The notes under the pieces are model-generated. The model had not been told where the DNA came from, searched no databases, and saw only the letters and a program-made list of their open reading frames with translations. DNA of 39,139 nucleotides from Isoptericola sp. (GTDB lineage Bacteria > Actinomycetota > Actinomycetes > Actinomycetales > Cellulomonadaceae): contig JAPSLQ010000011.1 of the NCBI GenBank assembly GCA_031180595.1, positions 1 to 39,139 of the forward strand, in the 5' to 3' direction. The translations under genes and the position numbers were made by a program. Each line of letters starts with the position of its first letter. The stretch's first letter is position 1. Shown here piece after piece: positions 13,268 through 29,057 of this stretch.

Positions 13268-14230
13268 ATGGGCGAGCAGCCGGTGAGCACCGCGGCCGGT
13301 GCGCCCGCCTCCGGGCGCGTCGCGGTCGTGGGGTCGGCCAACCTCGACGTCGTCGTCGACGTCCCGCGGCACCCGCGCGGCGGCGAGACGATCCTCGGCG
13401 GTGACCTGCGCCGCAGTCCCGGCGGGAAGGGAGCCAACCAGGCGGTCGCCGCCGCGCGGGCCGGCGGCGCCGACACCGTGCTGGTCGGGGCGCTCGGGCC
13501 CGACGACGGCGCCGAGGTCCTGCTGCGGTCGCTGACCGGGGCGGGGGTCCGGACCGACGGGGTGCGCCGCGTCGCCGCGGCCACGGGCACGGCGCTCATC
13601 ACGGTCTCGCCGGACGGCGAGAACGCGATCGTGGTGGCGCCGGGGGCCAACGCGCGCGTCGTCGTGGACGAGCCCGCGCGCGAGCTGGTGGCGGCGGCCG
13701 ACGTGGTGCTCGCGCAGCTCGAGGTCCCGCTCGACGTCGTCGTCGCGGCGGCCCGAGCGCGACGTCCCGGAGTCCCGTTCGTGCTCAACGCGGCGCCCTC
13801 GCGCGAGCTGCCCGCACCGGTGTGGCAGGACGTGGACGTCCTGGTCGTCAACGAGCACGAGGCTGCCGACCTCGCCGGACCGGACGGGGCGACTCAGCCC
13901 GAGCGGGCGCCGTCGGAGCTCGCGCGCCTGCTGCTCGCCCGCGTCCCCGCCGTCGTCGTGACGCTCGGCGGCGACGGCGCGCTCGTGGCCCGGCGTGGCC
14001 ACGACGACGTGCGGGTGCCGGGGGTCCGGGTCGACGTCGTGGACACGACGGGTGCGGGGGACACGTTCTGCGGGGTGCTCGCCGCCGAGCTCGCGCGCGG
14101 GGCCGACCTCGCCGAGGCCGCGCGCGTGGCGACCGTGGCGGGGGCGCTCGCCGTGACCCGGCACGGCGCGCAGGACGCCGTCCCGGGCCGCGCCGAGGTG
14201 CTCACACGCCGGTCGCGCGTGCCCGGATGA
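13268..14230 (+). CDS. PfkB-family carbohydrate kinase, ribokinase-like
   Basis: A 320-residue PfkB kinase. The N-terminal signature GGKGANQAVAAARAGG (near residue 52) and C-terminal signature DTTGAGDTFCG (residues 259-269, catalytic base Asp265) are intact, with VGSANLD at the start and NAAPSREL in the middle as in ribokinases. It transfers phosphate from ATP to a sugar or 2-keto-3-deoxy sugar acid. It follows the DapA-like gene after 22 bases containing AGGGAG, so it is the last operon gene. Its 3' end overlaps the convergent deoR gene by 29 bases. RbsK is the nearest familiar relative, but 2-keto-3-deoxygluconate kinase-type roles fit the neighbours too. Confidence 0.88.
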   Translation: MGEQPVSTAAGAPASGRVAVVGSANLDVVVDVPRHPRGGETILGGDLRRSPGGKGANQAVAAARAGGADTVLVGALGPDDGAEVLLRSLTGAGVRTDGVRRVAAATGTALITVSPDGENAIVVAPGANARVVVDEPARELVAAADVVLAQLEVPLDVVVAAARARRPGVPFVLNAAPSRELPAPVWQDVDVLVVNEHEAADLAGPDGATQPERAPSELARLLLARVPAVVVTLGGDGALVARRGHDDVRVPGVRVDVVDTTGAGDTFCGVLAAELARGADLAEAARVATVAGALAVTRHGAQDAVPGRAEVLTRRSRVPG

Positions 14231-14951
14231 TCGGGATCGGGAAGTGCGACGCCCGGATCGGGTCGAGCGTCGAGTCCGTGATTCCAGCCGTGAAGTCCTC
14301 GATCCCGAAGACGCGGAAGAGCGCCTCGCGACCGAACTTCGAGCTGTCGGCCACGAAGAAGGCTTCCGACGCGATGGACCGCATCTTGCGCTTGAGCTCG
14401 ATCTGGTAGCTCGTCGCCGCGTAGATGCCGTCCTCCATGACGGTCCCGGCGCCGAAGATCGCGACGTTGACCCGCAGGTTCTCGACCTGCTGGACCGACG
14501 TAGGGCCCCACATCGACGTCGTCGTGGGCAGCAGCTCACCGCCGACGAACACGAGGTTGACCTGCGGCTTGGTCGCGATCTCCAGGCCCACGTGCAGGTC
14601 GTGCGTGACGACGGTGAGGCGCTCGTGCGTCAGGTGCCGGGCGACCTCCAGGCAGGTGGACCCGCCGTCGAGGAGGACCGTCTGCCCCTCGAGGATCCGC
14701 TCGGCCATGGCGGCGCCGATGGCCTGCTTCTCGGCGCGGTGCAGGTTGCCCCCGTGCACGCGTCCGTGCTCGAAGGTGTGCACGGCGGCCGCGGCACCCC
14801 CGTGCGTCCGCGTGATCGCCCCCTCGGCCGCGAGGCGGTCGAGGTCGCGGCGGATCGTCGACGTGTCGACGTCGAACCGTGCCGCCAGGGCGGCGACGCT
14901 CTGGAAACCGTGCTGCTCAACGAGTTGCACGATCTGCTCGCGCCGAGTCAT
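14202..14951 (-). CDS. DeoR-family transcriptional regulator
   Basis: A 249-residue DeoR/GlpR-type repressor. The helix-turn-helix (residues 1-55) reads MTRREQIVQLVEQHG then VAALAARFDVDTSTIRRDL and a THGGA hinge. The C-terminal sugar-phosphate-sensing domain has LLDGGSTCLEVARHL and FVGGELLP. The start at 14951 follows GGAGGGGG by about 7 bases; the open frame runs further upstream through the divergent promoter and is rejected. It is divergent from the Lsr/Rha-type importer operon and probably represses it and itself, responding to a phosphorylated intermediate made by the DhaK/DhaL-like kinase. That effector idea is inference from family behaviour. Confidence 0.92.
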   Translation of the reverse strand: MTRREQIVQLVEQHGFQSVAALAARFDVDTSTIRRDLDRLAAEGAITRTHGGAAAAVHTFEHGRVHGGNLHRAEKQAIGAAMAERILEGQTVLLDGGSTCLEVARHLTHERLTVVTHDLHVGLEIATKPQVNLVFVGGELLPTTTSMWGPTSVQQVENLRVNVAIFGAGTVMEDGIYAATSYQIELKRKMRSIASEAFFVADSSKFGREALFRVFGIEDFTAGITDSTLDPIRASHFPIPIIRARATGV

Positions 14952-14995
14952 CGGTGACCCCCTCCGTCGTCCTGCGGCACAGGTTAGCAGCACCT

Positions 14996-15045
14996 TGTGC
15001 GCGAAAGTGCGCACACGCGGGATGGTGGGATGCACGAAACCGTGC
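14996..15045. promoter_or_regulatory. Twin CGAAA-containing inverted repeats, candidate DeoR operators
   Basis: TGTGCGCGAAAGTGCGCACA at 14996-15015 is an inverted repeat with 7-bp arms. GCACGAAACCGTGC at 15032-15045 is a second one with 5-bp arms. Both centre on CGAAA, a core often seen in DeoR/GlpR-type operators. A further TGTGCGC half-site is at 15074-15080. They lie just upstream of, and around, the predicted promoter of the importer operon. Confidence 0.6.
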
Positions 15046-15074
15046 TTGACGGGTCCTGATTAGCGGCCTAGCGT
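15046..15074 (+). promoter_or_regulatory. Predicted sigma-70-type promoter of the importer operon
   Basis: TTGACG at 15046-15051 and TAGCGT at 15069-15074 are separated by exactly 17 bases, a good actinobacterial housekeeping promoter. Transcription would start near 15081, about 54 bases before the binding-protein ATG. The -10 box touches a TGTGCGC half-site, fitting repression by DeoR. Confidence 0.6.
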
Positions 15075-15134: not shown

Positions 15135-16178
15135 ATGAAGCACCTGCGCACACAGGCAGTCCTCGCCTCGGGCGTCGCCGCCCTGATGCTGGCCGGCTGC
15201 GGATCCGTCGGAGGCGCCTCCGCGGGCGCCGGTGGTGGCGCGGCGGGCGGCTCGGACGGGGCGGCAGCCACCATGGTCACCGTCGTCAAGGTCAAGGGCA
15301 TCCCGTGGTTCGACCGCATGGAGGAGGGTGTCCTGGCCTACGGGGAGCGCACCGGGATCGACGCCCGCGCCGAGGGCGGCGACGACGTCAGCCCGGAGAA
15401 GCAGATCCAGATCATCCAGGACCTCATCGCCCAGAAGCCCGACGCGATCACCGTCGTGCCGAACTCCCCGGAGTCGCTGTCCGCGGTGCTCAAGCAGGCG
15501 CAGGACCAGGGCATCGTCGTCGTCGCCCACGAGGCCACGGGCATCGAGAACGTCGACGTCGACATCGAGGCGTTCGACAACGCCGTCTACGGCCGCGAGA
15601 TCATGGAGAACCTGGCCGAGTGCATGGGCGGCGAGGGCACGTACGTGCAGTTCGTCGGCGGCCTCACCGCCAAGACGCACATGGAGTGGGTCGGCGCCGC
15701 CTACGACCTCCAGCAGGCGGAGTTCCCGGGCATGACCCGCGTCGAGACCCCGATCGAGAGCACCGACAACGAGACCGCGGCCTACGAGAAGGCCAAGGAG
15801 ATCCTCGCGAAGCACCCGGACATCAAGGGCTTCCAGGGCTCGGCCGGCAACGACGTCCCGGGCATCGCCCGCGCGGTCGAGGAGGCGGGCCTGGAGGACG
15901 AGACCTGCGTCATGGGCACCTCCATCCCGTCGGCCGCGTCGAAGTACCTGGCCACCGGCTCGATCGACAAGATCTTCTTCTGGGACCCGGCCCTGGCCGG
16001 CGAGGCCCAGCTCGAGATCGCCCGCATCCTCGCCGAGGGCGGCACGATCGAGGAGGGCACCGACCTCGGGATCGAGGGCTACGAGAGCCTCACCAAGCTC
16101 GAGGGCTACGACAACGTCTTCCTGGGCAACGCGTCGATCGCGGCCGACGCCGAGACCGCCGCCCAGTACGACTTCTGA
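15135..16178 (+). CDS. ABC importer sugar-binding lipoprotein (RbsB/LsrB/RhaS type)
   Basis: A 347-residue type I periplasmic-binding-protein-like receptor. The lipoprotein signal ends LMLAGC with Cys22. The mature part has TVVKVKGIPWFDRMEEGVLAYGE, the PDAITVVPNSPESL edge strand, and a C-terminal FFWDPALAGEA and YDF ending like LsrB/RhaS relatives. Residues that bind AI-2 in LsrB are not clearly kept (the usual WDSD region reads AHEAT), so autoinducer-2 is not proposed. A small polyol, ketose or deoxysugar is more likely. It is the first gene of an operon with one double ATPase and two permeases. A strong hairpin follows it, which would allow higher receptor than transporter expression. Confidence 0.88.
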   Translation: MKHLRTQAVLASGVAALMLAGCGSVGGASAGAGGGAAGGSDGAAATMVTVVKVKGIPWFDRMEEGVLAYGERTGIDARAEGGDDVSPEKQIQIIQDLIAQKPDAITVVPNSPESLSAVLKQAQDQGIVVVAHEATGIENVDVDIEAFDNAVYGREIMENLAECMGGEGTYVQFVGGLTAKTHMEWVGAAYDLQQAEFPGMTRVETPIESTDNETAAYEKAKEILAKHPDIKGFQGSAGNDVPGIARAVEEAGLEDETCVMGTSIPSAASKYLATGSIDKIFFWDPALAGEAQLEIARILAEGGTIEEGTDLGIEGYESLTKLEGYDNVFLGNASIAADAETAAQYDF

Positions 16179-19907: not shown

Positions 19908-20909
19908 ATGAAGAAGATCATCAACAAGCCCGAGCAGTTCGTCGACGAGATGATCGAGGGCATCCTGCTCGCCCACCCCGACAAGGTGCGGACGCCCGGC
20001 GACGACCGGCGCATCCTCGTGCGTGCCGACGCGCCGCTCGAGGGCAAGGTCGGGATCGTCACCGGCGGCGGGTCGGGACACCTGCCGCTGTTCAAGGGAT
20101 ACGTCGGGCGCGGCCTGTGCTCGGGCGTCGCGATCGGCAACGTCTTCTCCTCGCCGTCCTCCCAGCAGGTCTTCGAGGCGACCAAGGCCGTCGACGGCGG
20201 TGCGGGCGTCCTGTACCTGTACGGCAACTACGGCGGCGACGTCTTCAACTTCGACCTCGCCGCCGACCTCGCGGAGCTCGAGGACATCCCCACCCGCACG
20301 GTGCTCGGCCGCGACGACGTCGCGAGCCAGCCCAAGGAGCGCAAGCACGACCGCCGCGGCGTCGCGGGCATCCTGTTCGCCTACAAGGCGGCCGGCGCGG
20401 CCGCGGAGCGCGGCGACAGCCTCGAGGAGGTCGCCGCGGTCGCCGAGGACGTCGTGGAGCACACCGCGACGATGGGCATCGGACTGTCCCCGACGATCCT
20501 GCCGACGACCGGCGCGCTGAGCTTCGAGCTGCCCGACGGCGAGATGGAGATCGGGATCGGCATCCACGGCGAGCCCGGCATCCACCGCGGGCCGCTCGAG
20601 ACCGCCGACGAGATCACCGACCGGATCGTCGGCGCGCTCACCGAGGACCTCGCCCTCGAGTCCGGCGACCGCGTGGCGGTGCTCGTCAACGGGATGGGCG
20701 CCACGCCGCTCGAGGAGCTGTACGTGGTGTACCGCCGCGTGCACCAGGCCCTGGCGGGGCAGGACGTCGCCATCGCCAAGTCGTACGTGGGCGAGTACGC
20801 CACCAGCCTCGAGATGGCCGGCCTGTCGATCTCGCTCCTCAAGCTCGACGACGCCCGGCTCGAGCTCCTCGAGGCACCCGCCCAGTCCCCCTTCTTCCAG
20901 GAGTCGTGA
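19908..20909 (+). CDS. DhaK-like dihydroxyacetone/ketose kinase substrate-binding subunit
   Basis: A 333-residue DhaK-fold protein. Known substrate residues of E. coli DhaK have counterparts: His58 in GGGSGH, Asp111 in NYGGDVFNF, and His220 in GIGIHGEPG, the His that binds the ketone covalently. However GGGSGHEP is GGGSGHLP here, and the TVPAAGKP-type loop reads ILPTTGAL, marking a divergent branch. DhaK binds the ketose while DhaL supplies nucleotide. ATG 19908 follows GAAAGGAAA by 4 bases; the longer open frame lies inside the permease gene. It is 3 bases upstream of dhaL. Linkage to a two-permease importer suggests a C3-C5 ketose or polyol-derived substrate rather than glycerol-derived dihydroxyacetone; this is inference. 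Confidence 0.88.
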   Translation: MKKIINKPEQFVDEMIEGILLAHPDKVRTPGDDRRILVRADAPLEGKVGIVTGGGSGHLPLFKGYVGRGLCSGVAIGNVFSSPSSQQVFEATKAVDGGAGVLYLYGNYGGDVFNFDLAADLAELEDIPTRTVLGRDDVASQPKERKHDRRGVAGILFAYKAAGAAAERGDSLEEVAAVAEDVVEHTATMGIGLSPTILPTTGALSFELPDGEMEIGIGIHGEPGIHRGPLETADEITDRIVGALTEDLALESGDRVAVLVNGMGATPLEELYVVYRRVHQALAGQDVAIAKSYVGEYATSLEMAGLSISLLKLDDARLELLEAPAQSPFFQES

Positions 20910-22507: not shown

Positions 22508-24526
22508 TCACGCCTCGCGCACGTCCGCACGGCCCGCGGGATCGAGCGTGACCGTGCACGTCCGGGACCCCACGCGCAGCCCTTCCACGCGCACGGCACC
22601 CACCGGGGACGGCGTCACCGGGCGGACGTCGAGCCCTCCGTCGGACGACGGAGCGAGCCCCAGCACCGCGGTGAGCAGCGCGACCGCCGACGCCGCGGAC
22701 CACGCCTGCGGGTGGCACGCAGCCGGGTAGGGCAGCGGCCCGGACCCGTCGCCCGCGGAGTTCCCGCCGAACAGCTCGGGCAGCTGGAAGTCCATGTACG
22801 GCGCGGCCTCGAGCAGCGCGCGCACCAGCGCGCCGGCCTCCTCGCTCAGCCCCGCCCGCGCCATGCCGAGCATGGCGATGGCGGTGTCGTGCGTCCACAC
22901 CGTCCCGCCGTGGTACCGCAGCGGCCAGTAGCCCTTCGAGGCCGCCGACAGCGTCCGCAGCCCGTAGCCGGAGTTCATGTCCGGCGCGACGAGACGCCGG
23001 GCGACGGTCCTCTCCTCGTCCGGGTCCAGCAGCCCCGTTCCGAGCAGGTGACCCATGTTCGAGGCCACGGAGTCCACGGGGCTGCCGTGCCGGTCGAGCG
23101 CGATCGCGACGTACGGGCCGGCGTCGTCGGACAACCAGAACTTCTCCCGGAACCGCTCCTTCAAGGCCTCGGCCCACGCCCGCCACTCGTCACCGCCCGG
23201 GCGCCCGAACGCGTCGAGCAGCTCGGCTCCGCCCCTCGCCGCCTCGTACGCGTACGCCTGGACCTCGCTGAGCGCGATCGGCCCCTCGGCGAGGCTGCCG
23301 TCGTGCCACTGGATCGAGTCGCCGGAGTCCTTCCAGCCCTGGTTGCTCAGCCCGTGCCCGCTGTCGTCGGCGTAGTCGAGGAACCCGTCGCCGTCGGCGT
23401 CGCCGTGGTCGCGCATCCAGGCCAGCGCGCGCTCGAGCGTCGGCAGCAGCTCCTCGACGTCGGCGGTCGCCAGGCCCCAGCGCCACGCGTCGCGCAGCAG
23501 GCACACCCACAGGCTCGTCGCGTCGACCGTGCCGTAGTACAGCGGCGGCAGCACCGTGCCGTCGTCGACCTGCAGCTCGCCGCTGCGCACCTCGTGCAGC
23601 ATCTTGCCCGGCTGCTCGGCGGTCTCGGTGTCGGTCACCGTGCCCTGCCGCGCGGCGAGCGTGCGCAGGGTCCCGCGCGCGAGGTCCGTCCCGAGCGGCA
23701 GCAGCATGCGCGCGGCCCACAGCGAGTCGCGCCCGAACAGCGTGAAGAACCACGGCGCGCCCGCGGCGAGGAAGGTCTCGCCCGGCGTGAACTCCGCGCT
23801 CATGCGCAGCCCGGCCAGGTCCTCGAGCGAGCGGCGCACCAGGGGAGCGAGCCGCTTGTCGTCCGCCTCCACCGTGGGGACCGACCACTCGGGCTCGGCA
23901 TTCGCGGGCGCGGACACCACGGCGGGCACGTGCATCCGCACCGACCAGCCGAGCGTGACCAGCTCGCCGGGCGCGACGGTCACGTCCCACGCGAGCGTCG
24001 CGCCGTCGTCGTCCACCTCGACCGCCGCGCCCGGCGCGGCGACGTCGACGACGGCGGACCCGTCGCTCCAGCGCACGCCGTCGGGCGTGGCGGCCGGCGC
24101 CAGGGGAGCGGCCTCGACGCCCTGCTTCACGGCCTCCATGCGCGCGAGGTCGCTCGTGACGCGCAGCGTCACCCGGCCCGAGACGGGGTCGTCGGTGCCG
24201 CACGACAGCTCGAGCTCCTCCGTCACCTCGCCCGGGCGCACGGCACGGCGCCGGCGCAGCATCGCCGTCGGGTCCGCTCCCGGTCCGTCGATCATGCGCA
24301 GCACGCCGACGGCCTCGAGCTCACCGGGCCCGGACCGGCCCGCGGAGATCGGCTCGGGCAGCAGGTCGTCCACCCGCACGACGGCGGTGCTCAGCACGCG
24401 CACGTCGGCGTGGTAGACGCCCTGCGCACCGTGCGGGTGCACCTGCCCGTCGCGGGCGCACCAGACCTGGCTGGGCGCCTGCAGCGTGACGAGCAGGTCG
24501 TGGAGGAAGGGCTGGACTCCGGCCAT
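22508..24526 (-). CDS. Glycogen-debranching-type amylo-alpha-1,6-glucosidase
   Basis: A 672-residue glycosidase. The N-terminal glycogen-debranching beta domain (about residues 1-215; GVYHADVRVLSTAVVRVDD, VRPGEVTEELELSCG) is followed by an (alpha/alpha)6 six-hairpin catalytic domain. FFTLFGRDSLWAARMLLPLG marks its start, GWKDSGDSIQW carries the likely acidic catalytic region, and YHGGTVWTHDTAIAM and LPYPAACHPQAWS lie near the end. There is no signal peptide, so it is cytoplasmic. It likely trims glucosidic or related branches from imported or stored glycans. ATG 24526 has AAGGAG 9 bases upstream. It is divergent from the lacI-CUT1 importer unit and shares a symmetric promoter with it, so the two are probably co-regulated. 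Confidence 0.88.
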   Translation of the reverse strand: MAGVQPFLHDLLVTLQAPSQVWCARDGQVHPHGAQGVYHADVRVLSTAVVRVDDLLPEPISAGRSGPGELEAVGVLRMIDGPGADPTAMLRRRRAVRPGEVTEELELSCGTDDPVSGRVTLRVTSDLARMEAVKQGVEAAPLAPAATPDGVRWSDGSAVVDVAAPGAAVEVDDDGATLAWDVTVAPGELVTLGWSVRMHVPAVVSAPANAEPEWSVPTVEADDKRLAPLVRRSLEDLAGLRMSAEFTPGETFLAAGAPWFFTLFGRDSLWAARMLLPLGTDLARGTLRTLAARQGTVTDTETAEQPGKMLHEVRSGELQVDDGTVLPPLYYGTVDATSLWVCLLRDAWRWGLATADVEELLPTLERALAWMRDHGDADGDGFLDYADDSGHGLSNQGWKDSGDSIQWHDGSLAEGPIALSEVQAYAYEAARGGAELLDAFGRPGGDEWRAWAEALKERFREKFWLSDDAGPYVAIALDRHGSPVDSVASNMGHLLGTGLLDPDEERTVARRLVAPDMNSGYGLRTLSAASKGYWPLRYHGGTVWTHDTAIAMLGMARAGLSEEAGALVRALLEAAPYMDFQLPELFGGNSAGDGSGPLPYPAACHPQAWSAASAVALLTAVLGLAPSSDGGLDVRPVTPSPVGAVRVEGLRVGSRTCTVTLDPAGRADVREA

Positions 24527-24569
24527 GGTGACGACTCCTTCGGCGCGGAGAGGGTGGTCCGCGTTCGAC

Positions 24570-24617
24570 TTGAACGATCCAACAACCGACGCTAGCGTCC
24601 TGTCTTAGATCGTTCAA
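24570..24617. promoter_or_regulatory. Mirror-symmetric divergent promoter with paired LacI operators
   Basis: Rightward: TTGAAC 24570-24575, 17 bases, TAGCGT 24593-24598. Leftward: TTGAAC on 24617-24612, 17 bases, TAGCGT on 24594-24589. The -10 boxes interlock in the palindrome ACGCTAGCGT (24589-24598), and the whole block is symmetric about 24593.5. Each -35 is covered by a 13-base site TTGAACGATCYAA (24570-24582, and 24605-24617 on the other strand). These are probable operators of the adjacent LacI protein controlling both transcription units together. Confidence 0.8.
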
Positions 24618-24656
24618 ACGGACCGACGACGGCCCGGGGATCGCGAGGGAGCGGGC

Positions 24657-25753: not shown

Positions 25754-27040
25754 ATGTCAACGACCACCTCACGACCCAGGTCCACGCGACGGGTCCGGCG
25801 CCCGCTCGCGGCCGTCACCGCGTCGTTCGCGGCGCTCGCCCTGGCGGCCTGCGGCGGCGGGTCCGGCTTCGACGAGGGCGGCGGCGGCTCCGGCGACGGG
25901 GAAGAAGGCGCCGGCGGCGAGACCGGCGGCGGCACGCTCGAGGTGCTCATCGGCTCGTCCGGTGACGCCGAGACCCAGTCCGTCACCGAGGCGCTCGAGG
26001 CCTGGTCCGCCGAGTCCGGCACGGAGGCCAACCTCAGCGTCGCGGCCGACCTGCCGCAGCAGCTCAGCCAGGGCTTCGCGGCCGGCTCCCCGCCCGACGT
26101 GTTCTACGTGGGCGTCGACCACTTCGCCGGGTACGCGGCCAACGGCTCGCTCGAGCCGTACGCGGACCAGATCGAAGCGGACTTCTTCCCGGCGCTCGTC
26201 GAGTCCTTCACGTACGAGGACACGTTCTACTGCGCACCCAAGGACTTCTCGACGCTCGCGCTCGTCGTCAACAACACCGCGTGGCAGGAGGCCGGGCTCA
26301 CCGAGGACGACTACCCGACCACGTGGGAGGAGCTGAGCACCGTCGCCGAGCAGCTCACGACCGACGGCCAGGTGGGCCTGAGCTTCGGGCCCGAGTGGCA
26401 GCGCATCGGGACGTTCATGGCCCAGGCGGGCGGCGGCCTCGTCGACGAGAACGGCTCGGCGAACGTCGACACACCGGAGAACGTCGAGGCGCTCACGTAC
26501 GTCCAGGAGATGCTCGCCGCGGGCACGGCGGCGTACCCGTCGGAGGTCGGCGCAGGATGGGGCGGCGAGGCGTTCGGCTCGGGCGCGGCGGCCATGACCA
26601 TCGAGGGCAACTGGGTCATCGGTGCGCTCACCAACGACTTCCCGGACGTCGACTACACGGTCGTGCCGCTGCCCGAGGGGCCGGCGGGCCAGGGCACCCT
26701 GCAGTTCACGAACTGCTGGGGCGTCGCGGCGGACTCGCAGAACAAGGAGGCCGCGATCGAGCTGGTGCGCTTCCTCGTCTCGGACGAGCAGCAGATGGCG
26801 TTCGCCGAGGGCTTCGGGGTCATGCCGTCCGTGGAGTCGGTGCGCGACCGGTGGACCGAGCAGTTCCCCGAGCAGGCGGCCTTCATCGAGGGCGCCGAGT
26901 ACGCGCAGGGCGTGCCGCCCGTCGAGGGCATCTCCGACGTGATCGGCGACTTCAACGCCCAGCTCGAGGGGCTGGCGTCCGGTGACCCGCAGCAGATCCT
27001 GACCTCGGTGCAGGGGTCGCTCGAGGCCGTGGCCCCGTGA
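25754..27040 (+). CDS. CUT1 ABC importer sugar-binding lipoprotein
   Basis: A 428-residue extracellular solute-binding protein family 1 member. The lipoprotein signal has an Arg-rich start and ALALAAC with lipidated Cys33, then a Gly/Glu-rich linker of about 30 residues. The binding domain has LEVLIGSSGDAETQSVTEALEAW, GSPPDVFYVGVDHFAGYA, PTTWEELSTVAEQL and GWGGEAFGSGAAAMTIEGNW (shortened). It captures an oligosaccharide at the cell surface for the two MalF/MalG-type permeases downstream. AAGGAG lies 7 bases before the ATG; its stop overlaps the permease GTG. Ligand is not readable; linkage to a debranching glucosidase favours an alpha-glucan or similar oligomer. Confidence 0.9.
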   Translation: MSTTTSRPRSTRRVRRPLAAVTASFAALALAACGGGSGFDEGGGGSGDGEEGAGGETGGGTLEVLIGSSGDAETQSVTEALEAWSAESGTEANLSVAADLPQQLSQGFAAGSPPDVFYVGVDHFAGYAANGSLEPYADQIEADFFPALVESFTYEDTFYCAPKDFSTLALVVNNTAWQEAGLTEDDYPTTWEELSTVAEQLTTDGQVGLSFGPEWQRIGTFMAQAGGGLVDENGSANVDTPENVEALTYVQEMLAAGTAAYPSEVGAGWGGEAFGSGAAAMTIEGNWVIGALTNDFPDVDYTVVPLPEGPAGQGTLQFTNCWGVAADSQNKEAAIELVRFLVSDEQQMAFAEGFGVMPSVESVRDRWTEQFPEQAAFIEGAEYAQGVPPVEGISDVIGDFNAQLEGLASGDPQQILTSVQGSLEAVAP

Positions 27041-28158
27041 CCACGGCACGGCCGGCCGGAACGGCGGCGCCGCACCGGCGCCGCCGTCCCGGCCGGGGCA
27101 TCCAGTCCGGGCAGGCGGCCGCGGGGTGGCTGTTCATCACCCCGATGCTCGTGCTGCTCGGGCTCTTCCTCGTGCTGCCCATCGCCATGGCGGCGTGGGT
27201 CAGCGTGTCCGACTGGACGGGCCGCGGGAACCCGTTCGGCGGCGCAGCGAGCTACGTAGGTGGCCAGAACTACGCCGAGCTGCTCACCGGCGGCGGCCTG
27301 CCGCAGCGCGACTTCGCGACGTCGCTCCGCAACAACGCGTACTACGTCCTGCTCGTGGTGCCGATCCAGACGGCGCTGTCGCTCACCCTGGCGATCCTCG
27401 TCAACCGCCGGATCATGCGGGGGCGCGGGTTCTTCCGCACCGCGTTCTACTTCCCGTCGGTGACGAGCTCGGTGGCCATCACCGTCGTCTTCCTCTTCCT
27501 GTTCACCGCCTCGGGCGCGGTCAACCGGGTGCTGTCGTACCTGAGCGTCGGCGGACCGAACTGGATCAACGACCCGCGCGGGGTGCTGCACATCGTCCTG
27601 GGCGCGGTCGGGGTGGACCAGCCGCCGGCGGTGCTGCAGTCCGCACCCTTCCTCGGGCTGTCGTGGTGGCAGTGGCTCGCCGGGCCCAGCGTCGCGATGT
27701 GCGTGTTCATCATCATGGGGATCTTCACGACGTCGGGCACGTTCATGCTGCTGTTCCTCGCGGCGCTGCAGAACCTGTCGGGCGAGGTCGAGGAGGCCGC
27801 GATGGTGGACGGCACGACGGCGTGGCAGCGTCTGCGGTACGTGACGATCCCGATGCTGCGGCCGACGATCTTCACGGTCGTCACCCTCGGCCTCATCGGC
27901 ACGTGGCAGGTGTTCGACCAGATCTACACCGGCACGCGCGGCTCACCGGGCAAGACGACGCTCACGCCCGCGTACCTGTCCTACGAGACGTCGTTCAACT
28001 CGCAGCAGTGGGGGCGGGGCGCGGCCATCGCGTTCATCCTCTTCGCGATCATCGTCGTGATGACGATCGTGCAGCGCGTCGTCCTGGCCGAGCGCGACGT
28101 CGTCCCGGCGCGCAAGCGGTTCTACCGCACGGGGCAGAAGGGTGGTGAGCCGTCATGA
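27037..28158 (+). CDS. CUT1 sugar ABC permease, MalF/UgpA type
   Basis: A 373-residue permease with a basic N-terminus (about 28 residues) and about six to seven hydrophobic segments. The EAA coupling loop is EEAAMVDGTTAWQRLRYVTIPMLRPTI (positions about 248-275; shortened motif EEAAMVDG). GTG 27037 overlaps the receptor stop, and its stop overlaps the next ATG. It forms a heterodimeric channel with the following permease. An unusual extra extracellular stretch of about 50 residues (VGGPNWINDPRGVLHIVLG onward) between helices 3 and 4 may contact the receptor. Confidence 0.92.
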   Translation: MTTARPAGTAAPHRRRRPGRGIQSGQAAAGWLFITPMLVLLGLFLVLPIAMAAWVSVSDWTGRGNPFGGAASYVGGQNYAELLTGGGLPQRDFATSLRNNAYYVLLVVPIQTALSLTLAILVNRRIMRGRGFFRTAFYFPSVTSSVAITVVFLFLFTASGAVNRVLSYLSVGGPNWINDPRGVLHIVLGAVGVDQPPAVLQSAPFLGLSWWQWLAGPSVAMCVFIIMGIFTTSGTFMLLFLAALQNLSGEVEEAAMVDGTTAWQRLRYVTIPMLRPTIFTVVTLGLIGTWQVFDQIYTGTRGSPGKTTLTPAYLSYETSFNSQQWGRGAAIAFILFAIIVVMTIVQRVVLAERDVVPARKRFYRTGQKGGEPS

Positions 28159-29057
28159 CCGCGGTCGCGGAGGCACCGGCGAGGGCCGGCGACGCCGGCG
28201 GGCGAGCCGCGGGGCGCCGGTCGCCCACGACGCGGCGGCTCGTGACGACGTCGTTCGTCTACGCGCTGCTCGCGGCGCTCGCCGTCGTGTACATCTTCCC
28301 GTTCCTCATCTCGATCTCGACCTCGTTCAAGTCGAACGCCGACGCCGCGGCGAACCCGCTGTCGCTCGTCCCGGCGACGTTCACGACGGAGGCCTACGAG
28401 CGGCTGTTCCTCAACTCGGACTTCCCGCTGTGGTTCCAGAACTCCGTGATCGTCACGCTGGCGGTGACGGTCGGGCGCGTGCTGTTCGACTCGCTGGCCG
28501 GGTACGCGCTGGCCCGCCTGCCGTTCCGCGGCCGGGGCGTGGTGTTCGCCGGCCTCGTGGCCGTCATGGCCGTGCCGAGCGTCGTGCTGCTCATCCCGAA
28601 GTTCCTCGTGATCAACACGCTCGGGATCTACGACTCCTACTCGGGCCTCATCATCCCGCTCCTGGCCGACGCGGCGGGGATCTTCATCATGAAGAACTTC
28701 TTCGAGTCGGTCCCGGCGAGCGTCGAGGAGGCGGCGCGCATCGACGGGGCGGGCACGTTCCGGGTGTTCTGGTCCGTGGTGCTCCCGATGGCGCGCCCCG
28801 CGCTCGTCACGATCGTCATCCTGTCGTTCCAGGGGTCGTGGAACGAGCTGTCGCACTTCATCGTGGCGTCCCAGAGCCAGGAGCTGTTCAACCTGACCAA
28901 GGGTGTGGCGCAGCTGTCGTCGGGCGCGCTGAGCCAGGGCACGCAGTACCCGCTCAAGCTCGGCGCGGCGGTCATCATGACCATCCCCGTGGCCGTGCTG
29001 TTCTTCGTCTTCCAGCGACGGATCATGAACGCCAGCGCCGGTGCGGTGAAGGGCTGA
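28155..29057 (+). CDS. CUT1 sugar ABC permease, MalG/UgpE type
   Basis: A 300-residue permease with six membrane segments after a 30-residue basic N-terminus. SISTSFKSNADAAANPLSLVP follows the first helix, and the EAA loop reads VEEAARIDGAGTFRVFWSVVLP. ATG 28155 overlaps the preceding stop (ATGA). No ATP-binding gene follows; CUT1 systems of actinobacteria commonly share a multitask MsmK-like ATPase encoded elsewhere, and that is the likely case here. Confidence 0.93.
   Translation: MTAVAEAPARAGDAGGRAAGRRSPTTRRLVTTSFVYALLAALAVVYIFPFLISISTSFKSNADAAANPLSLVPATFTTEAYERLFLNSDFPLWFQNSVIVTLAVTVGRVLFDSLAGYALARLPFRGRGVVFAGLVAVMAVPSVVLLIPKFLVINTLGIYDSYSGLIIPLLADAAGIFIMKNFFESVPASVEEAARIDGAGTFRVFWSVVLPMARPALVTIVILSFQGSWNELSHFIVASQSQELFNLTKGVAQLSSGALSQGTQYPLKLGAAVIMTIPVAVLFFVFQRRIMNASAGAVKG

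Follow-up and report, generated by a model that had tools for sequence, protein, structure and literature searches.

Whether one short stretch of intergenic DNA can act as the promoter of two divergent genes and place both of them under a single local repressor is the question raised by a locus of Isoptericola sp. (GCA_031180595.1, contig JAPSLQ010000011.1). The window, meaning the whole stretch of 39,139 nucleotides that was analyzed, contains a GH-type glucosidase gene and a lacI-type gene separated by a 130-bp intergenic region, with genes for a sugar ABC importer following lacI (Table 1). The LacI-family protein carries PF00356, PF13377, and PF00532, a LacI-type helix-turn-helix (HTH) together with a sugar-binding domain, and with sugar genes adjoining it has the makeup of a local regulator of this family. 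Between the two divergent genes, a first-pass annotation had proposed a mirror-symmetric bidirectional promoter with interlocked -10 boxes and one operator on each -35.

Table 1. Features of the divergent glucosidase-lacI locus, in coordinates of the window.
Feature	Position	Strand	Basis or remark
GH-type glucosidase, 672 aa (GDE_N_bis + MGH1-like GH + GDE_C)	22508..24526	-	AAGGAG ribosome site 24535-24540
LacI-family regulator, 351 aa	24657..25712	+	GAGGGAG ribosome site at about 24645-24651
Sugar ABC importer, binding protein	25772..27040	+	follows lacI
Sugar ABC importer, permease 1	27037..28158	+	
Sugar ABC importer, permease 2	28155..29057	+	
48-bp dyad, candidate bidirectional promoter with operator pair	24570..24617	both	sequence; kept in 6/6 loci with LacI identity >=70%
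Left LacI-type operator TTGAACGATCCAA, core GAACGATC, CG center	24570..24582	+	motif match; GAnCGnTC core also seen ahead of orthologous lacI genes
Right LacI-type operator TTGAACGATCTAA	24605..24617	-	motif match; core recurs upstream of orthologous lacI genes
lacI-direction -35 TTGAAC, within left operator	24570..24575	+	direct sequence check
lacI-direction -10 TAGCGT	24593..24598	+	sequence; TAnnnT kept in 6/6
Glucosidase-direction -35 TTGAAC, within right operator	24612..24617	-	direct sequence check
Glucosidase-direction -10 TAGCGT	24589..24594	-	sequence; TAnnnT kept in 6/6
Interlocked -10 box ANNNTANNNT (ACGCTAGCGT)	24589..24598	both	single occurrence in the 39 kb window
Predicted lacI transcript start, inside right operator	24605..24607	+	inferred: 7 nt past -10; first purine from there A24607
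Predicted glucosidase transcript start, inner edge of left operator	24582..24583	-	inferred: 6-7 nt past -10; minus-strand G at 24583

The central geometry of this proposal is borne out by direct inspection of the sequence. TTGAAC and TAGCGT are separated by a 17-bp spacer on the plus and the minus strand alike, T24593 and A24594 are common to both -10 hexamers, and the axis of symmetry falls at 24593.5. The symmetry is that of a dyad and not of a mirror, and it is incomplete, with 19 of 24 pairs matching and five mismatched; the element is nevertheless the top-scoring single 48-mer of the window, and exact 10-bp arms, TTGAACGATC and GATCGTTCAA, are visible by direct reading. An inverted-repeat search with two settings listed no repeat, and the dyad was instead verified directly on the sequence. 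The looser promoter pattern TTG-N16-18-TAnnnT has four matches in the window on both strands, two of which are the putative promoters of the 48-bp element. A scan for E. coli-type promoters between positions 20000 and 30000 found none, a blank that is expected for TAnnnT promoters because TAGCGT is far from TATAAT; TAnnnT is the mapped -10 consensus in Streptomyces avermitilis, an actinobacterium (PMC8780764). Elsewhere in the window, TTGACG-N17-TAGCGT, its -10 identical to that of the 48-bp element, occupies positions 15046-15074 between a DeoR-type regulator gene (14202-15035, minus strand) and a sugar-binding protein gene (15135-16178, plus strand).

Both -35 hexamers were also said to lie inside a 13-base LacI-type site, and this holds: with at most two mismatches, TTGAACGATCYAA matches the window twice, at exactly these two places. 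Shuffled windows gave a mean of 0.13 matches, and none of 100 shuffles contained two. The organism's own genome (86.6% complete) has five further TTGAACGATCYAA-like places, each with two mismatches, and the reversed control has one. The sites follow the even palindrome with a central CG that marks LacI-family operators (half-sites TTGAAC and GATCYA), yet only four of the six pairs match; full operator palindromes such as TTTGATCGATCAAA occur in some orthologs. Relative to lacI, the operator cores lie at -85 and -49, and their centers are 36 bp (3.4 turns) apart, instead of the 22 or 32 bp expected of a cooperative LacI pair; in many outer orthologs the spacing is 20–22 or 31–34 bp. Besides the -35 of one promoter, each putative operator overlaps the position at which transcription from the other promoter is predicted to begin, and the description of one operator on each -35 was thus correct for the -35s and incomplete in leaving out the starts. 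If transcription begins 7 nt from each -10, the plus-strand start would coincide with the right operator's first base and the minus-strand start with the left operator's last base, placing the overlapping -10s of opposite strands in a 23-bp register.

Conservation of the 48-bp symmetry in close relatives had been set beforehand as the test by which the proposal could fail. Orthologous LacI proteins were found in 53 of the 221 genomes of the family and in 4 of the 18 of the organism's own genus. The comparison covered 56 loci, made up of 51 of the 53 family genomes with a LacI ortholog (E<=1e-60) and five from other families of the order; G202, G075, and any additional match in a genome already represented were left out, and L033 was dropped as a duplicate of L112, the two having equal contig coordinates and upstream sequence. 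The glucosidase gene is divergent in 44 of these loci and was not found within the piece examined in the other 12. Six loci from three genera have a LacI identity of at least 70% (G000, G007, G001, and G015 of the same genus, and G194 and G239 of two others), and all six place both operators 36 bp apart, with 17-bp spacers both ways and the box at the exact center. The TTGA half of both operators points outward in every one of them, as a -35 requires, and the box varies as ACGATAGCGT, AGGCTATCGT, and ACGCTACCGT with TAnnnT retained on both strands. The test was thus passed, and the idea of a bidirectional promoter with shared operators gains support from substitutions that spare TAnnnT in both directions. 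Across the six loci, invariant columns make up 21 of 26 operator positions, 4 of 4 key -10 positions, and 5 of 18 other central positions, the key -10 positions differing from the other central columns with a hypergeometric value of 0.017 among rows that are related. This conservation represents few independent events because the six loci form one clade, and that of the -35s cannot be credited separately to promoter function because operator and -35 are the same bases. The closely related locus is patchy in genera g1, g10, and g15, being present in 4 of 18 own-genus genomes and in one genome each of the two other genera (at least 70%), which hints at transfer or repeated loss.

On the evidence of sequence and its conservation, the 48 bp are probably one bidirectional promoter in the 23-bp register, flanked by two operators of a local LacI-family autorepressor through which both directions would be co-repressed. 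RNA polymerase would load in either direction on the interlocked TAnnnT boxes, leading to the glucosidase on the left or to lacI, with the importer where present, on the right. Since each operator takes in the -35 of one direction and the start of the opposite one, occupancy of a single operator by a repressor dimer should suffice to block both directions. An inducing sugar would then release the repressor, and both units would be expected to be induced jointly, their promoters having the same hexamers and the same spacer length, so that lacI would be made in step with its targets once the repressor is removed. According to a study in E. coli, all five bidirectional promoters tested there were too weak for polymerase competition at basal level, and competition appeared once one direction was strengthened (PMC12825309); in light of this precedent, competition at the 48-bp element is possible and should not be assumed.

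The first-pass annotation had the glucosidase compete with a lacI-importer unit, but the importer is not an essential part of the arrangement. In G015, G194, and G239, the binding protein gene directly follows lacI and a permease 1 homologue is present, located on another contig of the assembly in G194 and G239. At E<=1e-60, searches with the binding protein and with permease 1 hit nothing in G001 (one contig, 100% complete) or in G007 (74% complete). All that G001 retains, just after lacI, is a binding-protein remnant of 49 residues (G001:C1 after 1261774; L003 2586-2767), and in G007 the importer genes are gone (L031 after 4347), a Pfam search of five ORFs after lacI in L031 giving no match. 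Both genomes retain the glucosidase, lacI, and the 48-bp layout despite this loss, and the promoter would therefore serve the enzyme and the repressor first. The importer appears to be a dispensable passenger of the lacI direction.

Among the 50 other loci examined (LacI identity <=65%), none has the two-operator 48-bp form, and many show another two-way register. In a tree of the LacI proteins, the six close loci join L118, L122, and L007 in a nine-member clade (support 100/99, and 87/79 for the six alone); L007 and the L118/L122 pair sit on long branches, whose joining may be spurious. All nine members carry the interlocked box 18 or 19 bp from the center of the right-hand operator, in the 23-bp register, and the lacI-side -35 takes other forms in the three added loci, with TTGACA in the operator's place in L122, a weak TTGCGG in L007, and no clear -35 in L118. 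Outside the clade, 6 of 47 loci carry a box of this kind at another position ahead of lacI, five of them 9 bp from an operator center. The sixth, that of L150, lies 17 bp from an operator-like core and has TTGAAC-N16-TATGGT on the minus strand with no matching -35 on the plus strand, and a similar box can thus arise without the full design.

The other register is built differently. Outside the clade, lacI has a TTGACA-type promoter at 32 of 47 loci, and an operator often follows closely downstream, its TTG half 17–18 bp away from an opposite-strand TAnnnT, which gives predicted starts 18 bp apart. Strict scoring finds a two-way pair in 26 of the 56 loci, comprising 8 in the 23-bp register and 18 in the 18-bp register, the latter being related to one another (11 of 18 in one tree cluster and 14 of 18 in one genus, g41). 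Relaxed matching lifts the pair-bearing loci from 26 to 33, a gain left uncounted since such matches are near-automatic for the 18-bp register, and 23 of the 56 loci show no two-way pair even then. Neither register appeared in any of 40x56 dinucleotide shuffles, nor in the upstream regions of 44 other LacI genes, of which 17 were L014-L030 and 27 were actinobacterial loci chosen by record title from 80. Only this frequency against shuffles and other LacI genes is taken as evidence from the registers; the restriction to distances of 18 and 23 bp, along with a weak 59–60 class, is partly compositional because the registers share bases. The combination of a TTGACA promoter with an operator-borne reverse -35 on one -10, in the 18-bp register, is seen upstream of lacI in L123, L124, L126, L128-L133, L137, L119, L005, L125, L136, L140, L009, and L010. 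In L146-L153 (genus g7), where no glucosidase gene turned up in the piece examined, a TTGACA-type promoter is directed away from lacI, and in L153 the polarity is reversed, TTGACA lying on the far strand and the lacI-side -35 in the operator.

The arrangement does not extend to a general design of the family. A search of the 221 family genomes for TTGA-N13-17-ANNNTANNNT-N13-17-TCAA returned 29 places, consisting of six with the present layout, one at the orthologous L122 locus (G238), and 22 elsewhere; the reversed control gave 24 places, leaving no excess outside the orthologous locus, and a family-wide design was rejected. Operator pairs around such a box were found in one genome, the organism's own, out of 396 genomes of the order drawn evenly and without G001, G007, G015, G194, and G239. 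One of the 22 places is L178 (G026, 1400-1610), where a non-orthologous lacI-type gene (G026:C1:2442706) diverges from what by eye is a permease-like gene; TTGAAC-N17-TAACCT and TTGACA-N17-TAGCCT there have the TA in common in a 23-bp register, with two TTCA(A/G)CGTTGAA sites and an operator-like TTCAGCGTTGAA on one -35. A similar two-way TTGA-box-TCAA element of 47 bp, near-identical in four genomes, is found in L167-L170 (G221, G215, G214, and G211; genus g7).

The central box might have a different function altogether. The 12-bp palindrome GACGCTAGCGTC, perfect over its full length in the window and in G007, would on such a reading be a third protein-binding site in place of a -10 pair. This is most improbable: the palindrome is broken in the other four of the six close loci, and its inner ten bases, ANNNTANNNT, are no longer palindromic in three of them (G001, G015, and G194), yet TAnnnT stays intact on both strands each time, which is predicted by a two-way promoter and not by a palindromic protein site. 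The LacI-type sites here, moreover, are centered on CG, versus TA in GACGCTAGCGTC. Harder still to credit is that the symmetry arose by chance, two operators having landed at matching distances from a fortuitous box. The control-level frequency of the pattern in the family outside the orthologous locus favors chance, but the window has a single ANNNTANNNT, positioned exactly at the center, three genera keep the exact spacing at LacI identities as low as 70%, and shuffles gave no two-way pair.

Less improbable, though still unlikely, is that a real promoter exists in one direction only. When a palindromic LacI operator sits at +1, the opposite strand automatically receives a -35, the operator's TTGANC lying about 17 bp from the -10 read in reverse, and the second promoter would be no more than this by-product. 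The 18-bp register of the outer orthologs is in part just that: much of it is accounted for by this geometry, the relaxed minus-strand -10 (.A...T) being automatic there, and the separate TTGACA-type promoter on the lacI side of most loci outside the clade points the same way. In the 23-bp register, however, the shared TA is all that comes automatically; A24589 and T24598 on the outside are needed as well, along with a second operator, and six of six loci keep them all. The upstream regions of these six loci (about 330 nt each), in turn, have no TTGAC[ACG]-type lacI promoter.

With the bidirectional promoter as the preferred reading, a history of the locus can be offered tentatively, as possible though short of probable. 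The locus may have changed register, from an 18-bp form in the outer orthologs, with one operator-borne -35, to the 23-bp form of the clade, within whose inner part a second operator would have been recruited as the other -35. The operators would then be the -35s, read by repressor and sigma factor alike, and the result would be a nearly fully symmetric switch in which repressor and enzyme have equal promoter strength, one dimer shuts both directions, and the arrangement persists after loss of the importer. The orthologs may line up as an evolutionary series linking the 18- and 23-bp registers, and they suggest a simple route to bidirectionality in which a palindromic LacI operator at +1 supplies the opposite-strand -35. 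The locus is also a natural, near-symmetric test object, as identical hexamers and spacing and matched operators remove most confounders, and polymerase competition and the way in which one repressor acts on both directions are questions testable on it.

A 2021 paper is reportedly the founding report on bidirectional promoters. Those with a shared -10 are common as a class, and what is uncommon in the present element is the matching of its two operators. A search of the open-access literature on bidirectional promoters, LacI, MalI, Actinobacteria, and Isoptericola found no report of this locus, nor a bidirectional promoter in which both -35s are operators of one repressor arranged as a dyad. 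Common distances between the starts of bidirectional promoters are 18, 10, and 23 bp, the 18- and 23-bp registers being published for E. coli (PMC12825309). The shared -10 promoters of Warman, Grainger, and colleagues (PMC12825309, PMC10268837) resemble the 48-bp element in that -10s of opposite strands overlap between divergent genes, the predicted starts being 23 bp apart here; unlike them, the present element, with starts that are predicted, has identical and equally spaced -35s, both inside putative sites of one local regulator. The E. coli PacrA/acrR promoter is similar in that a single shared -10 serves the gene of a local repressor and, divergently, the repressor's target, and AcrR represses both RNAs of this promoter in vitro, but AcrR is a TetR-family repressor and SoxS/MarA activates one direction, whereas the present locus has a LacI-family protein with two matched sites and a presumed action on both (PMC12825309). 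At malI-malXY of E. coli, the repressor MalI likewise belongs to the LacI/GalR family and has a 16-bp target at its own and its target promoters (PMC5543585). The divergons of the LacI family, as described in PMC4052901, share with this locus CG-centered palindromes, paired sites in a divergent intergenic region, and local autoregulation, which here is predicted; their intersite distances peak at 13, 22, and 32 bp, whereas the 36 bp of the present pair matches the geometry of the promoter.
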